Positions 2,949 through 63,000 of a stretch of 64,000 bases of DNA are shown here, piece by piece. The DNA lies in NCBI RefSeq assembly GCF_964355755.1, contig NC_092676.1, forward strand, positions 4,260,288 to 4,324,287, read 5' to 3'. The notes below the pieces were generated by a model. That model saw nothing but the letters and a program-made list of their open reading frames with translations, searched no databases and was not told the DNA's origin. Both the position numbers and the translations under genes were made by a program. Each line of letters opens with the position of its first letter. Within the stretch, counting starts at the first letter, position 1. Origin of the DNA: Antedon mediterranea. Its lineage: Eukaryota > Echinodermata > Crinoidea > Comatulida > Antedonidae.

Positions 2949-3096
2949 ATGTCAAACGTTGAGATGACTTTGGGAGATAAAGTTTACTACGCACATCACG
3001 GTACTGAATTGCGTAAGAAGATGTTTGTCTTTAAAGTGGTAATCATATTGATGGAGTTATCGTTTTCTAGTTGTGCTGATGTTGATTCAAATTCCG
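2949..3096 (+). CDS. Candidate first exon encoding a signal peptide
   Basis: Open from ATG at 2949 to a GT donor at 3097 (TCCG|GTATGA). A second in-frame ATG at 3021 (residue 25) has adenine at -3 and begins a classical leader: basic KK just before it, hydrophobic [18 protein letters not shown], then a polar, likely cleaved region ADVDSNS. The exon ends after the first base of a codon (G), which with the TA that opens every SRCR exon makes a valine codon. This phase match is the main reason to link it to the SRCR array. The 5.2-kb gap to the first intact SRCR exon is filled mostly by a satellite. The start at 3021 is preferred if the N-terminal 24 residues are untranslated. Confidence 0.5.
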
Positions 3097-39000: not shown

Positions 39001-42000
39001 GGTGAATATCCGGATACGCAAAAAATACCGTATAATATACGGTATTTAGTTGGCAGCAGAAACAGGGCCTAAGTCTCAGTTCCATTAGGAAGTTTTTTGT
39101 TTTCTTTTCTGGACCGAATCTGTGTTCCAAGGCCGCAATCAGTTCTACGTAGGTTAACTCCCGCTCTGGGGCCACAGCCAATACCTTCAAGGCTGGTCCT
39201 TTTAGGCTGGCTTTGAGGAATGCTCCAGCTTGTTCCTCCGTCCATCCGTTCGCCTCCACGCAGGCCCGAAAATGTTGGAGATAATCCCTCCAAGGCGCCT
39301 TTCCCTCAAACCTATCGGGATGTATGACTGGTCTTTGGCATCGGAGGTTCTTTCCAAACCTCTTCTGCATCGCTTCTGCTCCGCTTATCCTCGGTTCCTG
39401 GGTCAACGGCCATGGTGGAGTAAAGGTGTCAACTTCGGTCGACTGCGACCTTCTCTTTCCTGTTGACTGTCCAACAGGGGACCCTAATACCTCCAGACTA
39501 TCGGTTTCCTCCGCCCTCTGCTCCGAACTATCTCTATCTAAAGGTGCACGTCCGCTACCACCAGTACTCCTCTGGGGCGGGGAGCCGTGTCCAATACTGG
39601 AGCTTAACGGCTGCGCCGGGTCCATGTCCGTCACCTCGTTCTCCAGTCGGTTTATCTCCCTCTGGATAGCATCTAATGACTCTTGTAATTGTTCCATCGT
39701 GTGAGTAATTCCTTCCGCAACACGACCAAATCCCACCGCTGCCACCAATGTAACGAAAATCCGTCCTCGGGTTCGTTCCCTTTTGGGGAAAGGTCTGCGG
39801 TACCACGAATGAACGAAACACACAAATCAATTACAATCTTTGGAGTGGCCTCCTTTATTCTTCTATGATTTCTAATTTATTGGTACAAGTGATTATAATA
39901 ATTATTCTGATTAGTTCTGTTATTACGCCGGACTTGGAATAGTAGCGTAACCACCGCTCGCACGTAACGCAATGGTGTAACCTCCAACTGCACGTAACCA
40001 CCAACACAATGGTGTAACCTCCAACTGCACGTAACCACAAACAAGGGTGTAACCTTCACAGCGCGTAACCACCAACACAATGGTGTAACCTCCACAGCAC
40101 GTAACCACCAACACAATGGTGTAACCTCCACAGCAACGTACACCAACACAATGGTGTAACCTCCAACTGCACGTAACCACCAACTATGGTGTAACCTCCA
40201 ACTGCACGTAACCACCAACTAAGGTGTAACCTCCAACTGCACGTAACCACCAACAATGGTGTAACCTCCACAGCACGTAACCACCAACACAATGGTGTAA
40301 CCTCCAACCGCACGTAACCACAAACTAAGGTGTAACCTCCAACTTCACGTAACCACCAACTAAGGTGGAACCTCCAAACTGCACGTAACCACCAACAATG
40401 GTGTAACCTCCAATTGCACGTAACCACCAACTAAGGTGGAACCTCCAACTGCACGTAACCACCAACTAAGGTGTAACCTCCAACTGCACGTAACCACCAA
40501 CTAAGGTGTAACCTCCAACTGCACGTAACCACCAACTAAGGTGTAACCTCCACAGCACGTAACCACCAACACAATGATGCAACCTCCACAGCAACATACA
40601 CCAACACAATGGTGTAACCTCCAACTGTAGCGTAACCACACACAATGGTATAGCCTCCAACTGTAGTGTAACCACCAACTATGGTGTAACCTCCAACTGC
40701 ACGTAACCACCAACACAATGGTGTAACCTCCACAGCATGTAACCACCAACTATGGTGTAACCTCCAACTGCGCGTAACCACCAACACAATGGTGTAACCT
40801 CCACAGCACGTAACCACCAACTATGGTGTAACCTCAACAGCAACGTACACCAACACAATGGTGTAACCTCCACAGCAACGCAACCACCAACACAATGGTG
40901 TAACCTCCACAGCAACGTACACCAACACAATGGTGTAACCTCCACAGCAACGCAACCACCAACACAATGGTGTAACCTCCACAGCAACGTAGACCAACAC
41001 AATGGTGTAACCTCCAATACAAAACAGTGAGCGTAGCCTCGGGCTAACCTGTCACTTTCTCACTGTTAATTTTGTAACAAGAAATCACGAAACAATACAC
41101 TTACTACTTACTGTTTCTGTAATTCTCTCTTTTATTACTCAACTTTAGTTTCCTCATGGACACTTGTTTTCTTTTTAATCTCTCTGATATCTTTGCTCTA
41201 AATTATACGTCTGCTCTCTCCTTCCTCTCCTTTTCAACTCCCAGCTCATCTTTTCTTCCACTCCCTGCTCCTCTGCTGCCCTCTATGTTTTCTATCTTCC
41301 CCCAAAATCATTACAATATTATAATAAAGTACAAAGTAGTGTTATTTACCGTGATAATCTAAAGATAATAACAGTAATTATTATAATTGATTAATATTAC
41401 ATTTATAAAGAAACTTGTACATTTGTTTAATTTTAATAGTAAACATTAGACTTGTGGATGGCAGCAATTTCTATGAGGGGCGAGTTGAAGTTCACGATGG
41501 TACAGAATGGGGTACAATATGTGATAAAGGCTGGGACATTAACGACGCTCAAGTTGTATGTCAACAATTAAGACTAGGACAAGCTGTCCAAGCTCTAGTG
41601 GGAGCTTATTTTGGTCAAGGGACTGGTCCGATTATGCTTGATAATTTTCGGTGTTCAGGGAGTGAGACATCTATCACAAGCTGTCCTAATAATGGAATGA
41701 GGTTACACAATTATTGTGGACATAATGAGGATGCTAGTGTTATTTGTGGTAGGTAAAGTAGTAACTGTAAAAAGGATTAACACAGACAACAACAATACTG
41801 TAAGGCCAAGACAACTTTTTTAACTAGGAAATGTTTATCCCAGTTTAAAAGGAAAACCAATTTTGTTTTGTTCATAAGCTAATCTTTTCAATATTTTTGT
41901 TCATTGCCACCATTCACACTTTTTATCCACGTCCCAGTTATATTACTCATTAAATGTTAAAATAAAAACGTTCAGCAATTTCAAACTGCTACTCATCTTA

Positions 42001-45000
42001 TAAAATAATGGGCAGTTTGTCAGAGTTGGAAAAAAGAAACAGTTGTAATTTTTATTTGGTTTCAATCTCAAAATCATAATTTGTTTAAGAAATGTATTAT
42101 TTACACATTTTCATTCATCATTTAATTTTATATCAGTTCATTTCAGTTTATTCAATTTTTGCAAAACAGTAGACATAAATATAAAAAGGTACCAGAAAAT
42201 AATAAATAAACTAATAATGAAGATAATGTTATTTAGTGATGAAAGCTTAAAATGTTAAAAATGTTTCTATGGGCAGATATTATCTCATATTAAGATATAC
42301 CTCATCATTTAATTATTCGTTATATTGAACAGGTTTTAAATTTAGTTTTAAACTGTTTAATAGCAGTAATTTATAATACTATATTAGGTACCATTACAAT
42401 GGACGGGCACAATCTTATGATTATTTTAAGGTTAGGGAATCAAAAAGATAGTACAGGAATATAATTTAATGTCCTGAGTTACTTATGTCAGAATCACATC
42501 AGCTTTTATAACTTAACGAGAGTATAGCTTTACAGTGAGAGATACTGTATATCAATTATAAAGAACGGATATTAACTTGTACATTTGTTTCATTTAGTAA
42601 ACATTAGACTTGTGAATGGCATCAATATTTATGAGGGACGAGTTGAAGTTTACGATGGCACAGAATGGGGTACAGTATGTGATAATGGCTGGGACATTAA
42701 CGACGCTCAAGTTGTATGTCGACAATTGAGACTAGGACAAGCTACCCAAGCTCCAGGGCAAGCTCATTTTGGCCACGGGACTGGTCCGATTATGCTTGAT
42801 GATGTTCAGTGTTCTGGAAATGAGACATCTATCACAGACTGTCCTAATAATGGAATAAGGGTAGGCCTACACGATTGTGGGCATAATGAGGATGCTAGTG
42901 TTATTTGTCAATGTAAGAAAAAATTGACACTAAATACAAACTTTAGTACTAACAGACGATATTACAATACACTATGGACTAAGAGAGAGATTTATCAAAA
43001 ATTATATAAAATTTAAAGAAAAAAAGAGGTTAAAGCTACATTTGGCATTTTTTATTCTCCTTGTATATTAACCAGAGGAAACAAACAATACCATTAAATT
43101 AAACAGTGTAATATTGAAGCTTAAATATAATACGCCGTGGTTAGGATTCCGGCACCGGAACTCAACTGCCCAGCGTTAGGGATTCCGACACGCTATTGCG
43201 CATGCCCAGAGCGAGGTAATCGGCGACTCTATACTTATCAACAGCGATGGATTATTTCATAGCTGCGCCACACGGCGAACTAGCCTAGATGCCTTCTAAT
43301 ATGGGATCCACTAATCTAGGCTAGGGCTACCAGTTAGACTACGTGACCAGTGGGCCTATAGTATTTATTTTGTAATTAAAAAGTGGTTGCTTCATTCATA
43401 TATAAAATTCATATCATTATGAATTATATAATTACATGACTAGTTTTTTGATTTTTCATAACGCATTATACTGTACATATACAACATGCAATCACAAGTT
43501 GATTTGTTGACGGTGTTCTAAAATTTTAGGTACCCCCGTAACTGAGTGCACCCCCTATTGAATTACAACAGTAATACGTTGCATGCTCCGCCTACTTTAT
43601 GTTTATTCAACGAATTTTATGCATCACTAACTCTCGCTTCTTTTCCGGGATACAGAATATTTTAGCTTAGTTAAAATTTTCAGTACCCCGTGACAAATTG
43701 CACCCCCTACTCTACGTATTATAAAGTTTTGTCTACGTACTCCCACTTGCACTGATGAAGGGGTAGTGTTTTCCAAAAGCTCTGCTAAGTGTTCAGGCTG
43801 TTTTAATTTATCGTTTTGATTTAGCTTTTTCTTTATTTTATTTTGTATCCAGAGATCCTGTCACTGAAACCCACAACAATTCAGTAATTGTCCGATGTAT
43901 TATATAACTCGATCCTTGGACTATACACTTATTAGGCCTATGATTATTCATTATTATTATTTATTTATTAATAATGAAGTCATGGCCTGTATACGGGCCT
44001 GTATACTACGGTTATATACTGTTTATTTTTCATATGAATCAATGATTTTGATTTGAATGTTCATAACCGTTCTAAGCACCCTAGCGCTCTCCTAATTTTA
44101 TCTATAATATATTTATTTAATCTCAAGTTGTTTTAGGCCCATATAACATTATGTTTAGTTGTCTTATGATTATTTTACGAAGGAAAACGGACACACGCCA
44201 ATTGAACAGGAATACAAGCCCAAAACACCGGGCATTATGCACCAAAAATAAATCACATTGCACCCCCTATATTATAACAGTTAATAACTATATACTATAG
44301 GGGTTGCAATATATTACGGACTGTCTAGAATATTAGGTACCCCGTGACAGATTGCACCCCCTATATTATAACAGTTAATAACTATATACTATAGGGGTTG
44401 CAATATATTACGGACTGTCTAGAATATTAGGTACCCCCGTGACAGATTGCACCCCCTATATTATAACAGTTAATAACTATATACTATAGGGGGTGCAATA
44501 TATTATGGTCTGTCTAGAATATTAGGTACCCCGTGACAGATTGCACCCCCTGTAATATAACAGTTAATAACTATCTATTTTAGGGGTTGCAATATATTAT
44601 GGGCTGTCTAGAATATGAGGTACCCCCGTGACAGATTGCACCCCCTATATTATAACAGGTAATAACTATAGGGGGTGCAATATATTATGGTCTGTCTAGA
44701 ATATTAGGTACCCCGTGACAGATTGCACCCCCTGTAATATAACAGTTAATAACTATCTATTTTAGGGGTTGCAATATATTATGGGCTGTCTAGAATATTA
44801 GGTAACCCGTGACAGATTGCACCCCCTGTAATATAACAGTTAATAACTATATACTAAAGGGGGTGCAATATATTACGGACTGTCTAGAATATTAGGTACT
44901 ATACCCCGTGACAGATTGCACCCCCTATAATATAACAGTTAATAACTATATATTATAGGGGGTGCAATATATTACGGACTGTCTAGAATATTAGGTACCC

Positions 45001-48000
45001 CCGTGACAGATTGCACCCCCTGTATTATAATAGTTAATAACTATATACTATAGGGGGTACAATATATTATGGGCTGTCTAGAATATTAGGTACCCCTTTA
45101 CAGATTGCACCCCCTATATTATAACAGTTAATAACTATATATTATAGGGGGTGCAATATATTATGGGCTGTCTAGAATATTAGGTACCCCCGTGAGAGAT
45201 TGCACCCCCTATATTATAACAGTTAATAACTATATATTATAGGGGGTGCAATATATTATGGGCTGTCTAGAATATTAGGTACCCCGTGACAGATTGCACC
45301 CCCTATATTATAACAGTTAATAACTATATATTATAGGGGGTGCAATATATTACGGACTGTCTAGAATATTAGGTACCCCCGTGAGAGATTGCACCACCTG
45401 TATTATAATAGTTAATAACTATATACTATAGGAGGTACAATATATTATGGGCTGTCTAGAATATTAGGTACCCCGTGACAGATTGCACCCCCTATATTAT
45501 AACAGTTAATAACTATATATTATAGGGAGTGCAATATATTATGGGCTGTCTAGAATATTAGGTACCCCCGTGAGAGATTGCACCCCCTATATTATAACAG
45601 TTAATAACTATATACTATAGGGGGTACAATATATTATGGGCTGTCTAGAATATTAGGTACCCCCGTGACAGATTGCACCCCCTATATTATAACAGTTAAT
45701 AACTATATAATATAGGGGGTGCAATATATTATGGGCTGTCTAGAATATTAGGTACCCCGTGACAGATTGCACCCCCTATAATATAACAGTTAATAACTAT
45801 ATACTATAGGGGGTGCAATATATTATGGGCTGTCTAGAATATTAGGTACCCCGTGACAGATTGCACCCCCTGTAATATAACAGTTAATAACTATATATTA
45901 TAGGGGGTGCAATATATTACGGACTGTCTAGAATATTAGGTACCCCCGTGACAGATTGCACCCCCTATATTATAACAGTTAATAACTATATATTATAGGG
46001 GGTGCAATATATTATGGGCTGTCTAGAATATTAGGTACCCCCGTGACAGATTGCACCCCCCTATATTATAACAGTTAATAAATATATATTATAGGGGGTG
46101 CAATATATTATGGGCTGTCTAGAATATTAGGTACCCCGTGACAGATTGCACCCCCTATATTATAACAGTTAATAACTATATACTATAGGGGATGCAATAT
46201 ATTACGGACTGTCTAGAATATTAGGTACCCCGTGACAGATTGCACCCCCTGTATTATAATAGTTAATAACTATATATTATAAGGGGTACAATATATTATG
46301 GGCTGTCTAGAATATTAGGTACCCCGTGACAGATTGCAACCCCTATATTATAACAGTTAATAACTATATATTATAGGGGGTGCAATATATTACGGACTGT
46401 CTAGAATATTAGGTACCCCGTGACAGATTGCACCCCCTATAATATAACAGTTAATAACTATATACTATAGGGGGTGCAATATATTATGGGCTGTCTAGAA
46501 TATTAGGTACCCCGTAACAGATTGCACCCCCTGTAATATAACAGTTAATAACTATATATTATAGGGGGTGCAATATATTACGGACTGTCTAGAATATTAG
46601 GTACCCCCGTGACAGATTGCACCCCCTATATTATAACAGTTAATAACTATATATTATAGGGGGTGCAATATATTATGGGCTGTCTAGAATATTAGGTACC
46701 CCCGTGACAGATTGCACCCCCTATATTATAACAGTTAATAACTATATACTATAGGGGGTGCAATATATTACGGACTGTCTAGAATATTAGGTACCCCGTG
46801 ACAGATTGCACCCCCTATAATATAACAGTTAATAACTATATACTATAGGGGGTGCAATATATTATGGGCTTTCTAGAATATTAGGTACCCCGTGACAGAT
46901 TGCACCCCCTGTAATATAACAGTTAATAACTATATATTATAGGGGGTGCAATATATTACGGACTGTCTAGAATATTAGGTACCCCGTGACAGATTGCACC
47001 CCCTATATTATAACAGTTAATAATAACTATATATTTTAGGCGATACAATACAATACAATTTTGTTGTTTATTAATTTCATACATGCATTTCAAATTCACA
47101 AATGTCCCGCCCGCGACGTTTTAGGTGGTTTTTTATATTTATTTAAAAAGTAATGATGCAAAAATCATATTTCAAAAATATATTGTTACGGACGGGACAT
47201 TTTTTTTACGGACGGGACATATGATTTAAATCCTAATTATTTCACAAACCATGAATGTTTTAAACATTTTTTGACAGATATAGTTACACTATGACCCTAT
47301 ATTGTACATAGTCAAGCATTTTATAACACATATTTTGTTTATTAAATTTTATATATACATTTCAAAATTCATAATTGTCCCATCCACGACATTTAATAGT
47401 AGTTTTATGGTGTTTTTTACATTTCAGTTAACGTATTGATACCACAATTTAATATTTAGTTTTTTCCTTTTAAAAACTATATGCAGTACATTATAAACAA
47501 ATATTTTGAAACTTTTGGTGAACATATCGTATTTCAAAAATATATTGATGACATTTTTTGTAGGAACGGGACAGACATTTTTGTTAAGGACAGGACATAT
47601 CATTTAAATCCTTTTCATTTAATAAAACCATGCATCTTGTTAACATTTTCCCCATAAATATACTGTAGTTAACTTTTTATTTCACAGTAAGCTCCAATTG
47701 TTCATAATCAAGTACAGTATTTTATTATTGTTTATTAATTTCATACTTGCATTTCAAAATTCATAATTGTTACTTCTGAGACATTTCGATTGAGGTTTTT
47801 TCCTCACTTGTGTTTATTGAAGTAATGGCTCCAAAATTGTTATTTAATTCTTAATTTTCAATTGCAATAGATTTAAACAAGTTTTTTTAATATAAAAAAC
47901 ATTACTATCAAAATTTAGTGAATGTTACGGATGGGAAATTTTTGTTAGGGATGGGATGGCATTATTTTAAGAATTAAAACGTGTTTTTGTACTGTAGGCT

Positions 48001-51000
48001 GGACAGTACTGTACAAAGGTGTTAACTGCTGTTTATTAATCACAAAACATTGTGGTCTGTATTTAAAAAAACAATCCACAAAAGAACAATACCGAAATCC
48101 AAAACAACATGAAAAGTATGAAAGGGAGTATTGGGTGTGGTCATCACTTTGTAGATTTTGTGAATTTGCAACCAAGAATCTTTAAATATCAGATACTAAA
48201 TAATTAAGATTGAAGTTTAATAGAAGTAGGCCTACAGTAACATTAAATCCAAGCAAGGATGCAACTTGGATCCACTTTCTAACAAATTCAGACGTCAAAT
48301 GCCAACGACAATTTTTAAAGATTCTCCTTAAATGTGTTAATAGCTTGAAGTCTTGTGTAATATGCCAAGCACAACTTTTAAATTAGTGTAAATATTATTT
48401 TGATAGCATTTAACAGTATTGCTTCTCTTTATAACTCTTCGAATAATTAATTTTATAAATAAATATTTCATATTTATGAATTTTAATATTTTCACTTGAC
48501 ATAAACTTTTATACAGTGTTTCAAAGGTTGAATTATATTTTGATTTGTAAATAAAGGAGTAAATTGATGTAAAAAACCTCAGAAAAAACTAATTATAAAT
48601 TTTGTTTAACCTGGACAAAAGTGTCCTGTCCGCGATGTTAGAAATGTCCCGTCCGTAACGACATATAAATCATTTTATTAATAAATTTGCAGTTAAAATT
48701 TTATAATTAACAGTCAGTCATCTAAAACAACTATCTGGCAACATAATAATACAAAACAAATTTTAAAATCTCTTTTAAATGAGGAGAAATATTACAATAC
48801 GTAAACCTTCTTAAAACTCATTTCCAATTTGCCGTCATCCACGACGCATACAATTTTCATAATAAAAATATTTTTGTACAGTTTTTTTTTTCTTTTTTTT
48901 TGACTTCATAATTAACATTGGCCACATATGTATACATTCATTCTACTTTGAATCTTGTATTGTTTTTAATTTAAAGATAATGTCACAACAACTAGTTATA
49001 TTCTCAATTCCCTAATATATAGTTATTAACTGTTATATTATAGGGGGTGCAATCTGTCACGGGTTACCTAATATTCTAGACAGGCCGTAATATATTGCAC
49101 CCCCTATAGTATATAGTTATTAACTGTTATATTACAGGGGGTGCAATCTGTCACGGGGTACCTAATATTCTAGACAGCCCATAATATATTGCACCCCCTA
49201 TAATATATAGTTATTATTAACTGTTATAATATAGGGGGTGCAATCTGTCACGGGGTACCTAATATTCTAGACAGCCCATAATATATTTCACCCCTATAAT
49301 ATATAGTTATTAACTGTTATAATATAGGGGGTGCAATCTGTCACGGGTTACCTAATATTCTAGACAGCCCGTAATATATTGCACCCCCTATAGTATATAG
49401 TTATTAACTGTTATATTACAGGGGGTGCAATCTGTCACGGGGTACCTAATATTCTAGACAGCCCATAATATATTGCACCCCCTATAATATATAGTTATTA
49501 TTAACTGTTATAATATAGGGGGTGCAATCTGTCACGGGGTACCTAATATTCTAGACAGCCCATAATATATTGCACCCCTATAATATATAGTTATTAACTG
49601 TTATAATATAGGGGGTGCAATCTGTCACGGGTTACCTAATATTCTAGACAGCCCGTAATATATTGCACCCCTATAGTATATAGTTATTAACTGTTATATT
49701 ACAGGGGGTGCAATCTGTCACGGGGTACCTAATATTCTAGACAGTCCGTAATATATTGCACCCCCTATAGTATATAGTTATTAACTGTTATAATATAGGG
49801 GGTGCAATCTGTCACGGGTTACCTAATATTCTAGACAGCCCGTAATATATTTCACCCCTATAGTATATAGTTATTAACTGTTATATTACAGGGGGTGCAA
49901 TCTGTCACGGGGTACCTAATATTCTAGACAGCCCATAATATATTGCACCCCCTATAATATATAGTTATTATTAACTGTTATAATATAGGGGGTGCAATCT
50001 GTCACGGGGGTACCTAATATTCTAGACAGCCCATAATAGGCCTATATTGCACCTCTATAATATATAGTTATTAACTGTTATAATATAGGGGGTGCAATCT
50101 GTCACGGGTTACCTAATATTCTAGACAGCCCGTAATATATTGCACCCTTATAGTATATAGTTATTAACTGTTATATTACAAGGGGTGCAATCTGTCACGG
50201 GGTACCTAATATTCTAGACAGCCCATAATATATTGCACCCCCTATAATAAATAGTTATTATTAACTGTTATAATATAGGGGGTGCAATCTGTCACGGGGG
50301 TACCTAATATTCTAGACAGCCCATAATAGGCCTATATTGCACCTCTATAATATATAGTTATTAACTGTTATAATATAGGGGGTGCAATCTGTCACGGGGG
50401 TACCTAATATTCTAGACAGTCCGTAATATATTGCACCCCCTATAATATATAGTTATTAACTGTTATAATATAGGGGGTGCAATCTGTCACGGGGGTACCT
50501 AATATTCTAGACATTCCGTAATATATTGCACCCCCTATAATATATAGTTATTAACTGTTATAATATAGGGGGTGCAATCTGTCATGGGGGTACCTAATAT
50601 TCTAGACAGTCCGTAATATATTGCACCCCCTATAATATATAGTTATTAACTGTTATAATATAGGGGGTGCAATCTGTCACGGGGGTACCTAATATTCTAG
50701 ACAGTCCGTAATATATTGCACCCCCTATAATATATAGTTATTAACTGTTATAATATAGGGGGTGCAATCTGTCACGGGGGTACCTAATATTCTAGACATT
50801 CCGTAATATATTGCACCCCCTATAATATATAGTTATTAACTGTTATAATATAGGGGGTGCAATCTGTCACGGGGGTACCTAATATTCTAGACAGCCCATA
50901 ATATATTGCACCCCTTTAATAGATAGTTATTAACTATTATATTAGGCCTATAGGGGGTGCGTCACGGGTGTACCTAATATTCTAGACAGTCCGTAAAATA

Positions 51001-54000
51001 TTGTATCCTACTATAGTAGGCCTATTAACTGTTATATTAGGGGTATAGGGGTGCAACCTGTCACGGGGTACATAATATTGTAGACACCGAGGTTATAGGC
51101 CTACCTAAGCCTACTAGAGTGATTACCGTACTGTTATATTGTACCCTGTCACGAGGGTACAGACATTTGTCACAATATTGGGAATATTAACTCGTCAATT
51201 GCCGTGTATTAGATTATGTCATTCACATGGTTACAGATTAGTTTTTACGGTGCGTTTTTTATATTGTCTATCGTAGGCCTAAAGAATTAGCCACAATTCA
51301 TGATTTATAGTAGGCCTATAATAATGTATTACAGGATGTGAGAAAACTGTTCAATTTTATATTCTTAAGTTGGTCTATTTCGTAGGGAGGCGTGGATCAT
51401 TATTTTAAAAGAGTTACTATAAATGTATCTCCACAATCGGTCGCTATTGGCCAGGCTAGCCAGCCTAGTTCACATCACAGCTATATAAGCAGCTACAGCA
51501 GGCTCGGCTGTTTCGATTCAGAGATATCGGACTTCCGCGTCAGAGGCCTAGGTTATTTTCTCGATAAACAATCATTGCATGGTACATTTATGGATAATGT
51601 AGGTACATGAACAGTAGTATTTTTGTTATTATTACTGTACTAAAGACCTATAGGCTACATAAGTTGTGCGGGAGCGGTAGACATCTAAATATAAAATGTT
51701 ACTTAACATTACGTACGAGCGAGAGGGGATACTAAAAATTATGGGCGGATACAGTATGCTAATTATGTTGTGACGTTATTTGTAATTCAATAGGGGGTGC
51801 ACTCTGTTACGGGGGTACCTAAAATTTTAGAACAACGGCAGCCACCGCGTGGATGTGAAAAAACTGTTCGGGAAGTCAGGGTCACAACGCTAAAAACAGC
51901 ATTACGATTCTTAGATAGATAGGCCTACTGATACTTATTAATATCATTATAATTATTTTAACGCGTGGCGTAGTCATATTTTAATTATTAATTCATGTAT
52001 GGCATAGGCCAAGTTTCATCCATCGCTCTCTCGCTCGCGCAACGACTATCTAGGCTACAGTAAATCCCTATAACACTCCGACTCTCCGTGGTGTGGCACT
52101 ATTAATTATTAGTGCAAGCTATAATTCACTTCCCAGAGCTCTGGACATGCGCAATAGCGTGTCGGATTCCCTAATGATGGGCAGTTGAGTTCCGGTGCCG
52201 GAATCCTAACCACGGCGAATATAATATGTTTTTATTTCACCTGTATCGAATTATAAGAATTTATTTTCATCTTTAAAATACTCATTGTTATCACACCACC
52301 AGTATTCATCATTATCGTAGTGTTCTACTATGTAATTGTAATATAGAAATACATGAATTACTGAATTGTATTATTTACTGCTTGTGTTTTTTTTATACAA
52401 AACCATTATAGTCGGATGCCCAACATATTGCACATGTAATGTCTGGACGTGTGAAGATGATTGTTATAATCTCACTACATGTACTGGATGGAATACAAAT
52501 ATACATACAGAGCTTGTTGACTACAATGTGTATGATCCAATAACAACATTGTAAGTAGAACATTTTTTATCGATATTTTGAAATCTAACTAAATTTATGT
52601 CATACTGTGAGCAAAATCTACAATTTATATTTCTTTGATAATAGGTTCATGCTATTTATACAGCAGGATCATGATAATATTTAACAGAGGGGGAGTGGGT
52701 GGATTTTGTTAATGTGGAACTACTGGTCTTGTGCCGGTCTACAGTATATTTAGGTCGTTTCAGTCAGTTTACGGGCTCATCAGTATTCTGGTCAATTTCC
52801 GTATACGACATTTTACGTAAGAATGTGATAGTAGACTAAAAATTAAAATTATTTATCCACCATGATTGAACTATTTATTTTTGTAAGATCTAAGAATTGA
52901 AACTGAATCTGTATTACATATTAGATAATACATTTATTATAATATGGTTGCTATCAAACAATTACATTTGGTGAAGACATTTTATTTTAAGAAAATAAGT
53001 TATTAAATTATATTTATATTTATAATAATATACCACATTTTAATAAAAAATGACAAAATGTTAATAAGTAGGCCTAATCATGGATTAATAATATGTACCT
53101 TTTGATTCCATGATTATTTACAGTAAACCCAATTTTAAAATCAACATTTTTAAAATTTATCAACCATGATTGAACTATTTATTTTTGTAAGATCTAAGCA
53201 TTGAAACTGAATCTGAATTACATATAGATAATACATTTATTATATGGTTGCTATCAAACAATTTTAATTAGTTGTAGACATTTTATTTTTTAATAAAATA
53301 TACATTTTTATTTTAACATAGTATATTTTGTAAATCACTAAAGTACATACAATAGAGTACATGCAGTATAACTACTGTATAATGTACAGGAATATAGACA
53401 TTTCAACATTTGAGGTGACAGAAAAACTAAAATAATTTAAAAACAGCTTGGATATTGTGATTTACTTATACTGTGGATTCATTTTACTTTTAAGGATTTT
53501 CCCCACTGAACAAATAAGTACATTGCAAGCCAATGCATTTGCTGGTTTGACAGCATTGGAAACACTGTAAGTGTATTGCTTATGTTTGCTTACTTTTACC
53601 AATTTGGTTTTAGATTAGAAATTAAACTAAAAATTATTTTACATTGTTGGTTAAACAATGATAATTGATTAATATTATTGTATAATTTTACAATTTGTGA
53701 TCTTATAAAAATATCTTTATAAATCACTAGTTTTTAGTTTATCCACCATGAATGAACTTTATTTTTTCTGTAATATATATAATATAGGCTTAATATATAT
53801 TAATTCAATATATTCACAATATAAATATCATTATAATGAATGTTACTAAATAATAATATTTGTTTATTTATTAATTTTGTCTTATAAGAATAAAAATTAT
53901 TAAAATTTATATATATATTGTATATTTGTATACATTAAAATGTTGATACAATACAATGCATTGTATTTGTAGGATCAATTATAATAATGGACTAATATGT

Positions 54001-57000
54001 AACTTATGATTTCATGATTATTTACAGTAAAACAAATTTAAAAAGCAACAATTTTTTAATTTATGCACCATGATTGAACTATTTACTTTTGTAAGATATA
54101 ACAATAGAAATTAAATCTGTATACATATTAGATACTACATTTGTTATATGGTTGCTAACAAACAATTTGAAATTCGTGTAGAAATTTTCTTTTAGGAAAA
54201 TAAGTTATTAAAATATATTTATCACATTTTTATTTTAACTTAGTATATTTTGACATATAAGACATGCAGTATAACTACTGTATAATGTACAGGAATGTAG
54301 AAATTTCAACATTTAATTTAGAAACAGCTTGTGATTTACTTGTACTGTGCATTCTTTTTACTTTTAAGGAATTTGAACAATAACCAAATAAGTACATTAC
54401 CAGCCAATGCATTTGCTGGTTTGACAGCATTGGAAACACTGTAAGTGGTGTATTGCTTATGTTTGCTTACTTTTACCAATTTGGTTTTAATTTAGAAAAT
54501 AAACTAAAAATTATTTTACATTGTTGGTTAAACAATGATAATTGATTAATATTATTGTATAATTTTACAATTTGTGATCTTATAAAAATATTTTTATAAA
54601 TCACTAGTTTTTAGTTCATCCACCATGAATGTTTATGTAGTGAGTTTGTTTTATGAGAATAAAAATTATTAAAATATAAATATATTTTATATTTTGACAT
54701 TAAGATGTTGATACAATACAGTGCATGTATTGTAGGATCAATTGTAATAATGGACTAATATGTACCTTATGATTTCATGATTATACAGTCAAACAAATTT
54801 TAAAATCAACATTTTTAAAATTTATCCACCATGATTGAACTATTTATTTTTTAGATTACCGGGTGTCACGAAACCTAAGACCACGAAAGCTAAGACCTCC
54901 TAAGACCTAAGATCACGAAAGCTAAGACCCAAGACCTAAGATTACAAATATTTATCTTTCGCACCTGCCTTGTATTTTAACTCCCAACATTTATTCTGAA
55001 TACCACACCTTAGAATTGGCACTTTCATGAAAAATAATCACATAAAAAGTAACAAATACATTTTTAAATTGATGATTTTACAGACGTTTTTCTCGCACAC
55101 AAAATGACTAGCCTACACTAGTAGGCCTACCCCATGTTCAATGTTTTTGTTTATATGGAATGTCAAAAGAGCAAAAATTATATAGAGGGCTGAAAACTCT
55201 GTGGAGTCCATCTACAGTGTGGATGGAACAATGTAAAATTAAAATTGTAATGATAATAGTATAATCATGCAAGTACGAAGAAATAAATATTGGCAAATAA
55301 ATTTTAACTTAAAAATCATGATAAGTTTTTTTGTTTCGTTTTCTTTCTGTTTTATACTTGTACTATTATTGTTGCTCTTTTGGCGCTCCATAGAAACAAA
55401 AACATTGAGCATGTGGAGCTCGAGGAGTTACATTACAGTATACAAAGAAACACGTCTGTAAAATCATCAATTTAAAGGATTTATTTATTTGTTATTATGT
55501 GTTTCTCCTTCTGAAAGTACTTATAAGTCCTAATTTTAAAGTGTGGTATTCAGGATAAAGTTAGTCAACAAATTTGAAGTCAAAATACAAGAAAGGCAGG
55601 TGCGTAAGAAAAACATCCTCTGAACCAACACATTGGAGTAAATATATACCAACAAACAACCCGTCAAGTTTGTTTGTTGTAAAGAAAAAATATACATTTA
55701 CTCAACGGGTGAAAATAATGTGAGTTTATCTATGTTTTGCGGTAGTATTAAATTATATTTATGGTAATAAATGAAACCTACTGTGTTTAAAATTATGTAT
55801 GGATAAACAAGTATTGTTTTTAAGCTGTAGTATACCTTAGAATTTGTAATCTTAAGTCTTGGGTCTTAGCTTTCGTGATCTTAGGTCTTAGGGGCTCTTA
55901 GCTTTCGTGGTCTTAGGTTTCGTGACACCCTTAGATTACCAATTGAAACTGAATCTGTATACATATAGATAATACATTTATTATATGGTTGCTAACAAAC
56001 AATTTTAATTTGATGTAGACATTTTATTTTTATAAAATAAGTTATTAAAATATACATTTTTATTTTAACATAGTATATTTTGACATAACTAAAGTACATA
56101 ACTACTGTATAATGTACAGGAATGTAGACATTTCAACATTTGAGGTGACAGAAAAACTAAAATAATTTAAAAACAGCTTGGATATTGTGATTTACTTATA
56201 CTGTGGATTCATTTTACTTTTAAGGTATTTGGACAGGAACCAAATAAGTACATTACCAGCCAATGCATTTGCTGGTTTGACAGAATTGGAAAGACTGTGT
56301 ATTGCTTATGTTTGCTTACTTTTACAAATTTGGTTTTAATTTAGAAATTAAACTAAAAATTATTTTACATTGTTGGTTAAAAAATGATAATGGATTAATA
56401 TTATTATATAATTTCACAATTTGTGATCTTTTAAAAAATATCTTTAAAAATCAATAGTTTTTTGCTCATCCAACATGAACATATTTTTTTTGGAATAATA
56501 TTATAATAATTCAAAATAAATTTTTATTGTAAATTCCACAATATAAATATTATTATAACAAATGTTAATAAATAATTAGTATTTGTTTATGTAGTGATTT
56601 TGTTTGATTTTTGAGAATAAAAATTATTAAAATTTAAATATATATTTTGACATTAAAATGTTGATACAATACAGTGCATGTATTGTAGGATCAATTGTAA
56701 TAACGGACTAATAATATGTACCTTATGATTCCATGATTATTTACAGTCAGTCAGTCAGTCAGTCAGTTTAGCTGTATCATCCCCTGTCGGATGTAGCCCT
56801 CCTCATGCTTCTGCCAATCCCGTCTGTTCTGTGCTGTCCTCGCCCACGTGATACCTGCATACTTTGTGATGTCGTCCCTCCATCGCCGTTTCTGGCTTCC
56901 CCTTTTTCTTGTGCCGGTTCTTGGTTGCCATCTGTCATACGTTTTGTCCACCTGTTGTCATCCCTTCTTGCCAGGTGTCCCGCCCAACGCCATTTTGCTT

Positions 57001-60000
57001 CTTTTATTTTGTTCATTATATCTTTGACTTTAGTCAATTTCCTTATTACTGTGTTTCTGATTTTATCCCTATTTGTCACTCCGAGCATCTGCCTTTCCAT
57101 AGCTCTTTGTGCAGTGGTTAGTTTTTGTTCCAAAAATGTTTGTTGTTGTCCATGTTTCACAACCATAAGTCATTGTAGGGAGTACACACTGGGTGAAAAC
57201 TCTTCTCCTGTGAACTATTGGGATTTTCTTGTCGCAAAGGATTTCTCTATATCTGCCAAAGCAGCTCCATCCCGCCTTAATTCTTATGAGAATTTCGTCT
57301 CTTGTGTTGTCAGCCATTTTCACTGTTTGGCCCAGGTACTTGTAGCTATCAACTTGTTCGATCCTATCATTTTCAATTTCTATGGACTCATTGTTATGAA
57401 AGTTTGTCATGAACTTTGTCTTTCCTTTGTGTATTTTCAAACCAATCTTCTTGCTCTCTCTGTTCAGATCATTTAACTGTTCCTCCATGTCTTTGACTGT
57501 TTTGGTTGTCAAAGCAACGTCATCTGCAAATCTAAGGTCAGTTAAACTCTCTCCATCAATGTTGACGCCATGTCTTTCCAGGTTTAAATGTTTGAAAATT
57601 TCTTCCTCTATGGTTGTAGTGAATATTTTTGGTGATATTGTGTCCCCTTGTCTGACACCTCTGTTTATGTGGATGAGTTTAGATACATCTTTGTCAAGGT
57701 GTATTGTTGCAGTGGCATCTGTATAAATGTCTTCAATTATCTGAACATAGCCTTCATTTACTACAGTTTTCCTCAGGGCTCTAAACAGATCAGCATGTTC
57801 TACTGAGTCAAATGCCTTCTCGTAGTCTATGAACCCTACGCATAGATGCAGTTGGTATTCATTTGACTTCTCTATTAATTGGTTTAAAGAATGTAGATGG
57901 TCTGTTGTTGAGAATCCCTGCCTGAATCCAGCCTGCTCTCTTGGTTGGTTTTCATCGAGGATTTGTTTTAGTCTGTTTTGAATTATCCTTGTGAATATCT
58001 TGTATGCATGTGATAAAAGACTGATTGGTCTATAATTCTTGATATCGGCTTTGTCTCCCTTCTTGTGTAATATTATGATTTTTGCCTCTTTCCATTTTAC
58101 TGGTATTCTCTTTTCTCTCAAGATATGATTGCACAGCATAACTTGATAGTGGCAAACACACTATTTAAGAAAAATAAGAATAAATATTGGACCTGGGAGA
58201 GCCCAAATGGAAGAACAAGAAATCAAATAGACTTTATTTTAACCAGCCAACGGGGAATTGTAGAGGACTGCAGTGTAATAACAAATGTAGACATTGGTAG
58301 CGACCACAGGATGGTCAGAGCAAAAATACATCTGAAAAGGAAGCTTGAAAGACTAAAGATCATCAAAAACCAAAAGAAACCAAAACTGAACATATTGAAA
58401 CTGAAAAACAGAAAGGAGGAGTTCCAGTTGGAACTTAAAAATCGATTTGCAAGTCTAGACATTGAAGATGCAGATATAGACACCAAATTTGATCTGATAT
58501 CTTCAACAGTGATTGAGGCAGCTGAAGAAATAGCACCTTTGAACAGAGAGACAAAGCTGACATCTGAGGAGGACAGACTGATTGAGGAGCTTGATATAAA
58601 ACGAAAAGAACTTAGAGAAATTGAAAACAAATCAACATCACAACGAATAGAATATACAGAGTTAGTAAAAACAGTGAGAAAGATGAGAAGAACTAGAAGC
58701 AGAAAAAGGAAGAGAGAGCAAATTGAAACCATCTTGGAAAGTGGTAAAGGACCAAAACAGATCACAAAACTGAACCATAAGAAAACTAGAATTAACCAAA
58801 TGAGGAAGAAAGATGGTAACTTAACCACAGATAGAAAGGAAATCCTAAACATATGCGCAGACTTTTATCAAGAGCTGTACAACTCAACCAAGACAGAAAC
58901 CACAATGGATATCAAGAATAAATCTGTAGATGAAACAGAACTTCCAAAAATAACAGCTAGGGAAGTGGAAAAGGCCATCGAACAGATGAAAGATAATAAA
59001 GTACCAGGCTTAGATGACTTAGCCAGCGATATATTTAAGATAGGAGGGGAGGAGATAAACATTATTAGTTATCCGCTTAGTAGCGGATAACTCCTTGTAA
59101 TCGTCCTGTTACTTTTTTTTTTTTTCTTATTTCTTTCTCCCCCATTTTTGTGTCTCACGTATCTCAAAAACTTGTAAACATAACATTTCATAATTTTGTC
59201 AACATATGGGCATATACGTGAAGTTGTGCACCTCCTATTTTTGAATGACGTCAGAGTTGCGCAACGTGACTTACGCGCGATTTTATGATTTTTTATGATT
59301 GACCATAGATTAAAAACCAAGCGTAATTTTGTTTTGACACTTTGTGAAAATTTAAGTCATATCAAGTGCAAATTTTCTATGGATTAAAAATGGCATGTTT
59401 CACAAGAAGTTACGCGCGCACGCGCATTTAAAATTTCAAAATGCGCAAAATTAATTTCTAATCAACTTTCTACGCTGATCATGACATTTTGAGCTTGTCA
59501 AAAATTCCCACGCGCGCGAAAAAAATTACGCGTAAGGTGCGCACGGAGCATGAAAATCATGTGTTTTTATCTTGAATTGTAATTTTCCAGCCTTTCCTAG
59601 TCATTTTAAAAAAGATTGACATCATTTCAAATTAAAATGACGTCATACGAACACGTTGATTTAGACAATTTGCGTGCGTTTTAGTTGCAAAAGTGACAAA
59701 ATATTGTCAAAATTATGCCTACTTTGAATCTATTATAGCTCCTCAGGATCAACCGTTACCCCAATTTTTTTAATTTAATATGTAAGCAGATATGTTGTAG
59801 ATATGAATTCATGCAGAATCTTTACCCCTCGGATGTTATGACGTCATCGTATGGCCACACGAATGTAAAATATTGGATTTTTGACTGTTTCGTTATTGCT
59901 CATTACATTAAATAGAGCGCATATCGCTTATACGTATTCCATTTCCTCATATATTTTAATACTGTCTAGGTCAATCAACTATCTTTTGCATGAGTAAAAA

Positions 60001-63000
60001 ATATCTTAATTTTTATGACGTCATCATGTCTAAAAATGTAAATAATGCGGTTCACCTATTTTCATCTTTACAGTAAGTTTCAATCTGTTATAGCTCGTCA
60101 GAATAAAAAGTGATAATTATGATTAAAACGTTTTCTGGAAGCTATTGGATTGTAGATACGAATTTATGTAAACATTTTCCCAATCGGATCTTGTGACGTT
60201 ATCATATGGCCAGTTGAATTAAAAAAGTCGTATTTTCATATTTTTCGTCATAGTTCATTATATTTAAAAGAGCGCGCATCAATATTAAACGTATTCAAAT
60301 TTCTTCTACACGTTAATATGTTGTTGCTGAGATAATTTCCTTCCGAAATTGCTATCTTAGTGTTTCATCTTGATACCGTCGCCATGTTACAAATTTGAAT
60401 AAATGGCGGGTCCCGTAATTTCACCTCTTCTACACTGTATGTAACATGTATACAGATTATACTGTTTTCATGTATATACTATATGACACAAAATTGACAG
60501 AATTCAGCACTAACATATCATATTCTTCAGATCAGGTCATAATGCCATAATTTTTTTCTGTGTGCAATATTCTAACGTATGACGTGCACGTGGCGTTTGT
60601 CGTGCGGATAACTAACTCGTCAAAGTGACGAGTTACATGTCTAGTTTACAGTAAAACCACTTTAAAAAGCATATTTTTTAATGTATCAACTATGATTGAA
60701 TTATTTATTTATGTAAGATATAACAATTGAAAGTGAATCTGTATTACATATTAGATAATACATTTATTATATGGTTGCTAACAAAGAATTACATTTGGTG
60801 AAGACATTTTATTTTAAGAAAATAAGTTATTAAATTATATTTACCACATTTTTATAAAAAATGACAAAATGTTTTTAAGTAGGCCTAATCAATATTTCTT
60901 TATGTACTAATTTTGTCTTGAGAATATAAATTATTAAAAAATTGATACATAATAATTAAAAATTAATCTGAAATTGTAAAATTTCACAATATAAATATCA
61001 TCATAATGATTGTTATGCTAAATAATTAGTATTTGTTTATGTAGTGATTTTGTTTTATGATAATACAAATTATTAAAATATAAATATATATTTTATATTT
61101 TGACATCATTAAAATGTTGATACAATACAATGCATGTATTGTAGGATCAATTGTAATAATGGATTAATAATATGTATCAACATTTTTAAAATATATCCAC
61201 CATGATTGAACTATTTATTTTTGTAAGATATAACAAAAATGAATATGTATTACATATTAGATAATACATTTATTATATGGTTGCTAACAAACAATTTGAA
61301 TTTGTTGTAGACATTTTATTTTAATGAAATATAATAAGTTATTAAAATATACATTTTTACTTTAACATAGTATATTTTGACATCACTAAAGTACATACAA
61401 TAGAGTACATGCAGTATAACTACTGTATAATGTACAGGAATGTAGATATTTCAACATTTGAGGTGACAGAAAAATTAAAATAATTTTGAAACAGCTTGGA
61501 TATTGTGATTATACTTATACTGTGCATTCTTTTTACTTTTAAGGTCTTTGGGCAGGAACCAAATAAGTACATTACAAGCCAATGCATTTGCTGGTTTGAC
61601 AGCATTGGAAACACTGTAAGTGTATTGCTTATGTTTGCTTACTTTTACAATTTGGTTTTAATATAGAAATTAAATATAAAATTATTTTACATTGTTGGTT
61701 AAGCAATGATAATGGATTATTATTGTTACTTAATTGTACACTTTGTGATCTAATAAAAATATCTTTATAAATCACTAGTTTTTAGTTCATCCACCATGAA
61801 TGAACTTTATTTTGGTGTAATACATAATAATTCAAAATTAATATTAATTGTAAAATTGTATAATATAAATATCATTATAATGATTGTTATGCTAAATAAT
61901 TAGTATTTGTTTATGTTGTAATTTTGTTTTATGAGAAAAAAATCATCAAAATATAAATACATATTATATATTTTGACATTATTAAAATATTGATACAAAC
62001 AGGTGTGCTTGCATTAATATTATTATATAATTTCACAATTTGTGATCATGTAAAAGATATCTTAAAAATCACTAGTTTTTTGCTCATTCACCATGAATGA
62101 ACTTTTTATAATATATAATTCAAAATAATTGTTATTGTAAATATCACAATATAAATATCATTATAACAAATGTTACTAAATAATTAATATTTGTTTATGT
62201 TGTAAGTTTGTCTTATAAGAAAAAAAATTATTGAAATATAAATATATATTGTGATCATCTTATACAAAATCAATAGTTTTAGTTCATCCACCATGAATGA
62301 ACTTTATTTTTGTGTAATACATATTAATTAAAAATAATAATAATAATTCAAAATCAATCACTATATAAATATCATTATAATAATTACTATTTGTTTATGT
62401 AGTGATTTTGTTTTATGAGAATAAAAATTATTAAATATATATTTTATATTTTGACATTAAAATGTTGATACAATACAGTGCATGTATTGTAAGTTCAATT
62501 GTAATAATGGATTAATATGTACTTTATGATTCAATGATTATTTACAGTAAAACCATTTTAAAAAGCAACAATTTTAAAATGTATCCACCATGATTGAACT
62601 ATTTATTTGTGTAAGATACTAAATATGTATTACATATTAGAAAATACATTTATTGCATGGTTGCTAACAAACAATTTGAATTTGCTGTAAAATTTTCTTT
62701 TGTGAAAATAAGTCATTTAAATATATTTACCACATTTTTATTTTAACATAGTATATTTTGTACATGACTAAAGTACATAAAATAGAGTACATGCAGTATA
62801 ACTACTGTATAATGTACAGGAATGTAGACATTTCAACATTTGAGGTGACAGAAAAACTAAAATAATTTAAAAACAGCTTGGATATTGTGATTTACTTATA
62901 CTGTGCATTCTTTTTACTTTTAAGGTATTTGAACACTAACTTAATAAGTACATTACAAGCCAATGTATTTGCTGGTTTGACAGCATTGGAAACACTGTAA

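Follow-up and report, generated by a model that had tools for sequence, protein, structure and literature searches.

In a 64-kb window of the Antedon mediterranea genome (64 kb being the whole stretch of DNA that was analyzed), 17 intact exons encoding SRCR domains (8296-42912), an exon encoding a cysteine-rich cap and a series of LRR exons follow one another, in this order, on one strand (+). The best reading of this arrangement is that the SRCR, cap and LRR exons probably belong to one hybrid gene. A single hybrid receptor gene had been proposed in a sequence-only reading of the same DNA, and the exon layout, the open frame and the spacing of the two arrays speak for that proposal, whereas the splicing that would unite the arrays is predicted and two weak rival exons lie near the junction.

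The SRCR exons, all on the + strand and all modeled as phase 1-1, are located at 8296-8601, 10042-10347, 11195-11503, 11876-12181 and 13559-13864 (exons 1-5); 14712-15020, 15393-15698, 17076-17381, 18229-18537 and 18910-19215 (exons 6-10); 20372-20680, 21515-21823, 23116-23424, 23818-24123 and 25140-25448 (exons 11-15); 41440-41748 (exon 16); and 42598-42912 (exon 17, the last of the array). Pfam recognizes 17 SRCR stretches (PF00530) in the full model, placing it in the SRCR superfamily and bearing out the earlier count of at least 17 SRCR domains. Exon 17 (315 nt; Pfam SRCR, E 1.8e-31) ends at the donor AAT/GTAAGA, which ranks in the top 0.8% of the 3921 GTs of the window by a position weight matrix (PWM) built from this window. 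SRCR domains of group A have six cysteines and are encoded by two exons, and those of group B usually have eight cysteines and are encoded by one exon; the exons described here mix traits of the two groups, with six cysteines in each of 17/17 and each domain contained in a single exon. The array also includes a truncated SRCR piece at its 5' extreme (7815-7967), which the model must skip, and a 16-residue fragment match at 21077. In 9 of the 17 exons (8 of exons 1-15, plus exon 16), the phase-1 donor G/GTAGGT is rivaled by a frame-breaking AG/GTAA 4 nt downstream. With pN/pS of 0.81 (28 pairs, covering 8 of the 17 exons), the SRCR exons show little purifying selection; the SRCR tabulation that accompanies the LRR substitution counts below covers 10 exons, with five copies and two exons of other length left out. 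At another place in the window, a unit of 3,517 bp is followed by an identical one (0 differences), a repetition that could stem from recent duplication or from assembly.

Five complete LRR exons, each of 72 nt and phase 2-2 and each with its own intron and splice sites, are present on the + strand at 53495-53566, 54369-54440, 56225-56296, 61544-61615 and 62925-62996, and a sixth (63965-64000) runs into the window end, in agreement with the earlier estimate of at least six repeats. The repeats match Pfam LRR_8 (E 1e-41), with an LRR profile of the extracellular type, and their best match among PDB sequences is LGR4. One donor, GTGTAT at 56297, following exon 56225-56296, is non-consensus. At the ligand face, made up of the first six codons of each repeat (xLxxNx), the difference between exons amounts to 37%, compared with approximately 4% in the adjacent intron, and all ligand-face codon pairs that differ do so nonsynonymously (59/59). 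By substitution counts, 13 of the 18 nucleotide columns of the ligand face are variable versus 7 of the 75 columns of the adjacent upstream intron (Fisher p 1.7e-7). Upstream-intron figures from a MAFFT alignment include the flank of the sixth exon. This pattern suggests diversifying selection in the LRR exons, and it holds even if the SRCR and LRR arrays are separate genes. A pattern search of viral contigs yielded no confirmed relatives of either part (0 of 23 matches for the LRR part and 0 of 6 for the last SRCR exon).

Directly ahead of the LRRs lies the cap exon (52412-52550, + strand), with a phase-1 acceptor (TATAG/TC) and a phase-2 donor (ATT/GTAAGT). Its designation as LRRNT in the sequence-only reading is favored by the CPxxCxC...C pattern and by its position, but Pfam returns no family for its 47 amino acids at E<=1, the LRRNT profile (PF01462) included, and a comparison of the cap exon plus the first LRR with PDB sequences produced nothing better than E 0.14. 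The CPxxCxC cap pattern is shared with the LRRNT of the lamprey and hagfish VLR. Among the 23 acceptors of the model, that of the cap exon scores lowest (leave-one-out score of -4.6, with the others between 0.2 and 11.6) and falls within the top 9.8% of the 3,027 AGs of the window; the PWM is small, built from this window and dominated by duplicated exons. The exon has no in-frame start: the upstream frame contains a TGA and no ATG. A hydrophobic in-frame readthrough upstream of the exon (score 2.96) was considered as a leader and rejected for lack of an ATG; its score is unremarkable, given that, among 15 other acceptors, 4 score 3.26, 5 score 2.44-2.50 and 6 score lower.

When the exons from the leader to the fifth LRR are spliced in silico, the resulting model comprises 1,936 codons with zero stops, whereas two other trial ends of the cap exon introduce 15 and 3 stops into the joined model. 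The candidate leader exon (3021-3096, + strand) encodes 25 residues with a hydropathy of 3.04, ends at a phase-1 donor (CCG/GTATGA) and would be part of the SRCR-LRR gene; in a crude signal-peptide test, a charged residue lies ahead of its cleavage site. The phases reported earlier for the two exons at the junction, a phase-1 end of 42598-42912 and a phase-1 start of the cap exon, are both correct, and the SRCR array is thus compatible with the cap exon in phase. However, the phase match is weak evidence: extracellular modules generally have phase-1 boundaries, the SRCR donors were picked by the analyst to be phase 1, and use of the downstream GTAA donor in 9 of the 17 exons would break the frame.

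The spacing of the arrays is, by contrast, strong evidence for the one-gene reading. The left flank of the junction intron (42913-43132, + strand) ends in the 9-bp target site duplication (TSD) AATATAATA, followed by an inserted foldback-type element of approximately 9.1 kb (43133-52217, no strand assigned) that is bounded by 80-bp terminal inverted repeats (TIRs) and contains two satellite arrays of approximately 94-bp units (44257-47040, 29.5 copies, and 49013-51086, 21.7 copies), in opposite orientation as judged by eye, around a center of approximately 2 kb. The TSD is exact over 9 bp (43124-43132 and 52218-52226), a match far beyond chance: random pairs of 9-mers agree in 26 of 2,000,000 draws within the flanks and in 251 of 2,000,000 in the window. 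Because of this exact duplication around the element, the arrays can be placed 405 bp apart before the insertion (flanks of 220 and 194 nt minus one TSD copy), which upholds both the distance of about 405 bases and the exact 9-bp duplication described earlier. The donor after 42912 would then be joined to the acceptor at 52412 across an intron of 9.5 kb. Between 42951 and 52380, no stop-free phase 1-1 cassette exon (60-400 nt, pyrimidine-rich acceptor, GTRAG donor) was found. The first ~31 nt of the left flank, from 42913 on, are homologous to other SRCR introns; the break in homology after this point was considered as a fusion breakpoint but set aside, as the last unit of a tandem duplication would show the same break. 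The exact TSD together with the TIRs, which are 95% identical, shows that the element arrived in one event at one site, and disfavors a misjoin in the satellite arrays.

The main alternative, which we consider doubtful although the strongest of the rivals, is that the window contains two co-oriented neighboring genes: an SRCR gene that ends at or soon after 42912, and an LRR gene that has its promoter and leader within the element or in sequence where they went unrecognized. The SRCR gene could terminate, for example, by readthrough of the last donor to a stop at 43014-43016 or in a short, hydrophobic terminal exon at 52303-52346 (+ strand), in phase after the acceptor CACCAG. The latter favors two genes, in that only 2 of 1000 simulated first-order Markov sequences are as hydrophobic, but a hydrophobic end of 14 residues is short for a membrane anchor. 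For the LRR gene, an in-phase leader-like ORF is available inside the element (51607-51676, + strand; 23 residues, phase-1 donor GCG/GTAGAC), approximately 125 nt downstream of a TATATAAG and within a stretch of the right arm (51460-51700) that is single-copy in the window, both strands considered. This ORF has the highest hydropathy of the 65 leader-like entries in the window, but its hydrophobic core is immediately followed by the charged KTYR, with no uncharged -3/-1 residues and no clean cleavage site (the leader at 3021 is imperfect as well), and such ORFs are common by chance, with 65 overlapping entries in 64 kb, 2 of which, from one ATG, fall in the gap. The earlier statement that the LRRNT exon has no leader of its own in this space stands for the two flanks of the element, where no phase-1 leader ORF exists, and has to be qualified for the element itself; a leader inside the element had been named as an observation that would count against one gene, and 51607-51676 is a candidate of that kind, with poor signal-peptide features. 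The low score of the cap acceptor also fits two genes. The sequence-only reading saw no polyadenylation signal between the arrays, which is incorrect, as ATTAAA occurs at 43093 and 43098; although these sites could serve a separate SRCR gene, their number is at the chance level (2 observed versus 2.2 expected), as is that of AATAAA, and we dropped the polyadenylation argument for either direction. Above all, a terminal exon and polyadenylation site of the SRCR gene as well as the promoter, 5'UTR, leader and intron of the LRR gene would have to be accommodated within the 405 bp that preceded the insertion or be supplied by the element, so that a single gene explains the arrangement with the fewest assumptions.

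A disrupted or relic locus, in which the arrays once formed one or two genes but now yield no productive full-length transcript, appears improbable. The 9.1-kb insertion, the competing out-of-frame donors of the SRCR exons, the truncated SRCR piece, the non-consensus LRR donor at 56297 and the SRCR pN/pS value are all compatible with decay, and transcripts could be terminated prematurely at any of eight AATAAA on the + strand of the element. Nevertheless, 17/17 SRCR frames and 5/5 complete LRR frames are open, and, given that the ligand-face codons are variable and all their differences nonsynonymous, the LRR array appears to have been under recent selection on the protein rather than being a relic. 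An assembly misjoin within the satellite arrays, uniting two unrelated loci, is very improbable: arrays of ~94-bp units are hard to assemble and identical successive 3,517-bp units occur elsewhere in the window, but the same TSD is found on both outer sides (random agreement of about 1e-5 to 1e-4) and the TIRs are nearly identical.

Phrase searches of the open-access literature found no SRCR-LRR protein, and the text consulted of papers that mention both SRCR and LRRNT describes none either, in agreement with the earlier statement that no receptor with this domain order has been described. The partners of SRCR named in the available text of the relevant papers are Ig, collagen, LDL receptor, FN3, Sushi, EGF, kinase, CUB, trypsin and C-type lectin domains, and the sea urchin is reported to have 218 gene models with 1905 SRCR domains; SRCR is reported in many domain combinations (PMC3308324, PMC2575513, PMC7308585, PMC6208332, PMC8242945, PMC11797021). 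The multidomain SRCR proteins of sea urchin, amphioxus, sponge and ctenophore resemble the predicted protein in containing tandem SRCR arrays from expanded families, but their partners named in that text do not include LRRs, a comparison that leaves aside the amphioxus table (PMC2575513 supplement) and the ctenophore figure (PMC11797021).

On the LRR side, the parts consulted of the respective papers describe three comparable systems. Brown-algal LRR-ROCO genes encode one LRR per 72-bp exon with phase 2 introns, evolve by exon shuffling and have positively selected sites on the concave face, and vertebrate gonadotrophin receptors also have phase-2 single-LRR exons (PMC11378527). The 72-bp phase-2 exons and the diversified concave sites (here, by substitution counts) are shared with our locus, but the LRR-ROCO protein is a GTPase with ROC-COR, and SRCR goes unmentioned in that part of the paper (PMC11378527), whereas here the cap and the SRCR array precede the LRRs. 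The 1,936-aa model, from a gene that runs on beyond the window, contains no ROC-COR domain at E<=0.001. Type C LRR-GPCRs, RXFP and GRL101, combine LDLa modules with an LRR ectodomain, usually with one repeat per exon (PMC8286064, PMC11863921); compared up to LRR exon 6, they differ in that the extra module is LDLa rather than SRCR, and the model (1,936 aa) shows no LDLa at a threshold of E<=0.001. The VLR of lamprey and hagfish has an LRRNT cap and 24-residue LRRs and binds antigen on the concave face, but the sole intron of a VLR gene lies in the 5'UTR, and the gene is completed with LRR cassettes that flank it (PMC3308329). At our locus, by contrast, each repeat is a separate exon joined by splicing, so that the LRR region is not intronless, and SRCR domains precede the repeats.

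Under the one-gene reading, the gene would continue past the window end and the window would cover the larger share of its ectodomain, in which a signal peptide is followed by 17 or more SRCR domains, the cysteine-rich LRR cap and six or more LRRs. The C-terminal part, beyond the window, may be of transmembrane, 7TM, TIR or GPI type. The SRCR array, with one domain per phase 1-1 exon, may form a long repeated stalk, and the LRR solenoid, each repeat of which corresponds to a 72-bp phase 2-2 exon, would expose diversified residues on a concave beta-sheet. Both arrays could grow by tandem duplication of exon plus intron, and such lengthening would keep the frame. The predicted product, most likely a germline-encoded recognition receptor or a secreted recognizer, would be located at the surface or secreted, may recognize ligands and may have an immune role. 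More tentatively, the locus may represent an animal germline receptor in which two exon arrays expand independently of each other. One would supply an SRCR stalk and the other an LRR solenoid, in which strong selection diversifies the concave face of one repeat after another but leaves introns and scaffold almost unchanged. Such a receptor would be an animal counterpart of the brown-algal LRR-ROCO exon system and of the VLR binding surface. Should a single transcript cover both arrays, two of the main recognition modules of invertebrates would be fused in one protein, and the LRR part would illustrate how a germline gene can diversify its ligand specificity internally, through duplication of individual 72-bp exons with changes confined to the codons that face the ligand.

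SRCR arrays, introns and retroelements suggest that this AT-rich window (GC 34.9%) comes from an animal, perhaps an echinoderm-like one. Its plus strand carries 17 complete SRCR exons (306-315 nt each; 8296-42912), modelled in phase 1-1, all of which encode six cysteines. A candidate leader exon lies upstream of the array (3021-3096), separated from the first SRCR exon by an 83-bp satellite array (5047-7513), and a truncated SRCR piece located 5' of the array (7815-7967) retains the acceptor and the first half of the exon, lacks the second half, and merges into array intron sequence. At 1-1642 and 1907-2641 lie tRNA genes in repeats: four for tRNA-Thr within a 367-bp tandem repeat, and two tRNA-Asp-like ones (anticodon called ATC) within a 364-bp repeat. 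Within the array, three units of three exons each recur at 3,517-bp spacing (10041-19215), with 0 differences between 10041-13557 and 13558-17074 and a 15-bp repeat tract, ATTTTATATCTGTTC, present once per unit. The intron between exons 15 and 16 contains 35-bp minisatellite arrays (25921-27487 and 39966-41017) flanking minus-strand LTR-retrotransposon-like ORFs, reverse transcriptase/integrase-like at 28-31 kb and gag-like at 36 kb (families assigned by eye). The SRCR exons appear to evolve near neutrality (pN/pS 0.81; 28 pairs among 8 exons). Nine of the 17 (8601-41752) end in overlapping donors, GTAGGTAA, set 4 nt apart: the phase-1 donor G/GTAGGT keeps the frame, and AG/GTAA, 4 nt downstream, breaks it.

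The SRCR array is followed by an inserted foldback-type element (43133-52217) with 80-bp inverted ends that are 95% identical and two ~94-bp satellite arrays, bounded by the exact duplication AATATAATA. With the element discounted, the distance from the last SRCR exon to a cysteine-rich cap exon (52412-52550, plus strand) is 405 nt, as the sequence-only reading had estimated. That reading also placed no LRR leader in this space and, indeed, a phase-1 leader ORF was sought in both flanks and none was found. Furthermore, a search of the gap for stop-free phase 1-1 cassette exons (60-400 nt, pyrimidine-rich acceptor, GTRAG donor) found none, and the cap exon has no in-frame start codon of its own. 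With no leader in the flanks, no such cassette exon and no start, the LRR array would have to be entered from the SRCR array, unless it begins in the element or elsewhere. A small position matrix built from the window ranks the last SRCR donor highly (top 0.8% of 3,921 GTs), and the cap acceptor is the lowest-scoring of the model's 23 (top 9.8% of 3,027 AGs). The supposed lack of a polyadenylation signal in the gap proved incorrect, since the left flank has two copies of ATTAAA, but AATAAA or ATTAAA would be expected 2.2 times in sequence of this kind.

The earlier LRRNT label of the cap exon, which encodes additional cysteines, is based on its CPxxCxC pattern and its position; the exon alone matches no Pfam model at E<=1, and, combined with the first LRR, its best PDB match was no better than E 0.14. 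The plus-strand LRR exons, exactly 72 nt long and in phase 2-2, comprise five complete copies and a sixth truncated where the window stops. One of these (56225-56296) has the donor GTGTAT (56297-56302) where GTAAGT is expected, apparently the product of a short deletion. The LRR introns also harbor an element with inverted ends GGGTGTCACGAAACCTAAGACC (54861-55929; by eye) and a minus-strand non-LTR reverse-transcriptase-like ORF head to head with a similar plus-strand ORF (57069-59090; family by eye). In-silico splicing from the leader to the LRRs yields 1,936 codons with zero stops, an open frame that is partly a product of the modeller's choice of the in-frame SRCR donors, and Pfam detects 17 SRCR stretches and LRR_8 in the full model.

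Taking the 405-nt spacing as the decisive fact, we lean towards a single hybrid gene comprising both arrays. This spacing and the open spliced frame favor the previously proposed SRCR-LRR protein, but a leader-like ORF in the element and the competing donors count against it. It is rather unlikely that the SRCR and LRR arrays are separate genes. That ORF (51607-51676), which could serve as a leader for the second, is in the correct phase, has the highest hydropathy (3.48) of the 65 leader-like entries in the window, and is preceded by TATATAAG 125 nt upstream; however, KTYR immediately follows its hydrophobic core, there is no clean cleavage site, and such ORFs are frequent by chance. The two-gene arrangement would also gain from an in-phase acceptor ending at 52302, which could provide a hydrophobic terminal exon for the SRCR array; equal hydrophobicity was reached in 2 of 1000 first-order simulations, this candidate being one among several features sought post hoc. 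Part of the element's right arm (51460-51700), containing TATATAAG and the 51607 ORF, is not repeated on either strand of the window. More doubtful still is that the locus is a relic. Counted against the hybrid gene are the frame-breaking donors in more than half of the SRCR exons, the truncated first SRCR exon, the GTGTAT donor, the two ATTAAA motifs, although these are near chance expectation, and eight AATAAA motifs on the plus strand of the element. An assembly misjoin of the two arrays, for instance inside the satellites, is highly improbable: two 9-mers agree by chance in only 26 of 2,000,000 cases in the flanks and 251 of 2,000,000 in the window, so the exact duplication shows that the flanks adjoined each other before the element inserted.

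Judging by their sequences, the LRR exons and introns are recent copies. The introns differ between copies by 3.5% over the last 100 nt upstream of the exons, by 5.6% and 7.2% over the first 60 and 100 nt downstream, and by 9.4% and 10.0% over 160-nt stretches. Across the six LRR exons, including the cut one, divergence is 36.7% in the first six codons (xLxxNx; 99/270 comparisons) and 5.1% in the next 17 nt (13/255); nucleotides 20-72 of the five complete exons differ by 4.2% (22/530). Positions x1, x3, x4 and x6 line the concave face of an LRR solenoid. Variable columns number 13 of 18 in xLxxNx vs 7 of 75 in the gap-free adjacent intron (Fisher p 1.7e-7, a guide only, the substitution counts sharing ancestry and being non-independent). 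The adjacent intron, which differs by about 4%, is possibly constrained too next to the acceptor, but the contrast persists when the wider stretches, at 10%, serve as the reference. Among the xLxxNx codons, 59 of 90 comparisons differ, all 59 nonsynonymously; summed over the 10 pairs of complete exons, there are 74 nonsynonymous and 10 synonymous differences (pN 0.139, pS 0.063). We read the xLxxNx excess as a sign of diversifying selection, or else of selective retention, among the tandem exons. In this respect, the exons resemble those of brown-algal LRR-ROCO genes, which are reported to be 72 bp long and in phase 2, with four concave sites under selection (PMC11378527).

For sea urchins, 218 gene models and 1905 SRCR domains are reported (PMC3308324). 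SRCR domains are also reported in many domain combinations in amphioxus (PMC2575513), where they occur in adhesion GPCRs as well (PMC2246102), and in novel ones in ctenophores, where the SRCR partners named in part of a figure legend do not include LRR (PMC11797021). Partners given in reviews and in work on sponges are Ig, collagen, LDL receptor, FN3, Sushi and EGF (PMC7308585, PMC6208332, PMC8242945). Echinoderm LRR-GPCRs are described as carrying LDLa modules alongside LRRs, usually with one repeat per exon (PMC8286064, PMC11863921). Searches of the open-access literature for phrases combining SRCR with LRR found no paper, a weak negative.

The product of the hybrid gene, whose C-terminus lies beyond the window, would most likely be a recognition receptor or a secreted recogniser. 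The SRCR domains would serve as an extended multivalent stalk for the LRR solenoid, whose ligand face would be diversified through exon duplication and selection; with frame-neutral exons (1-1 and 2-2), either array would be free to lengthen.
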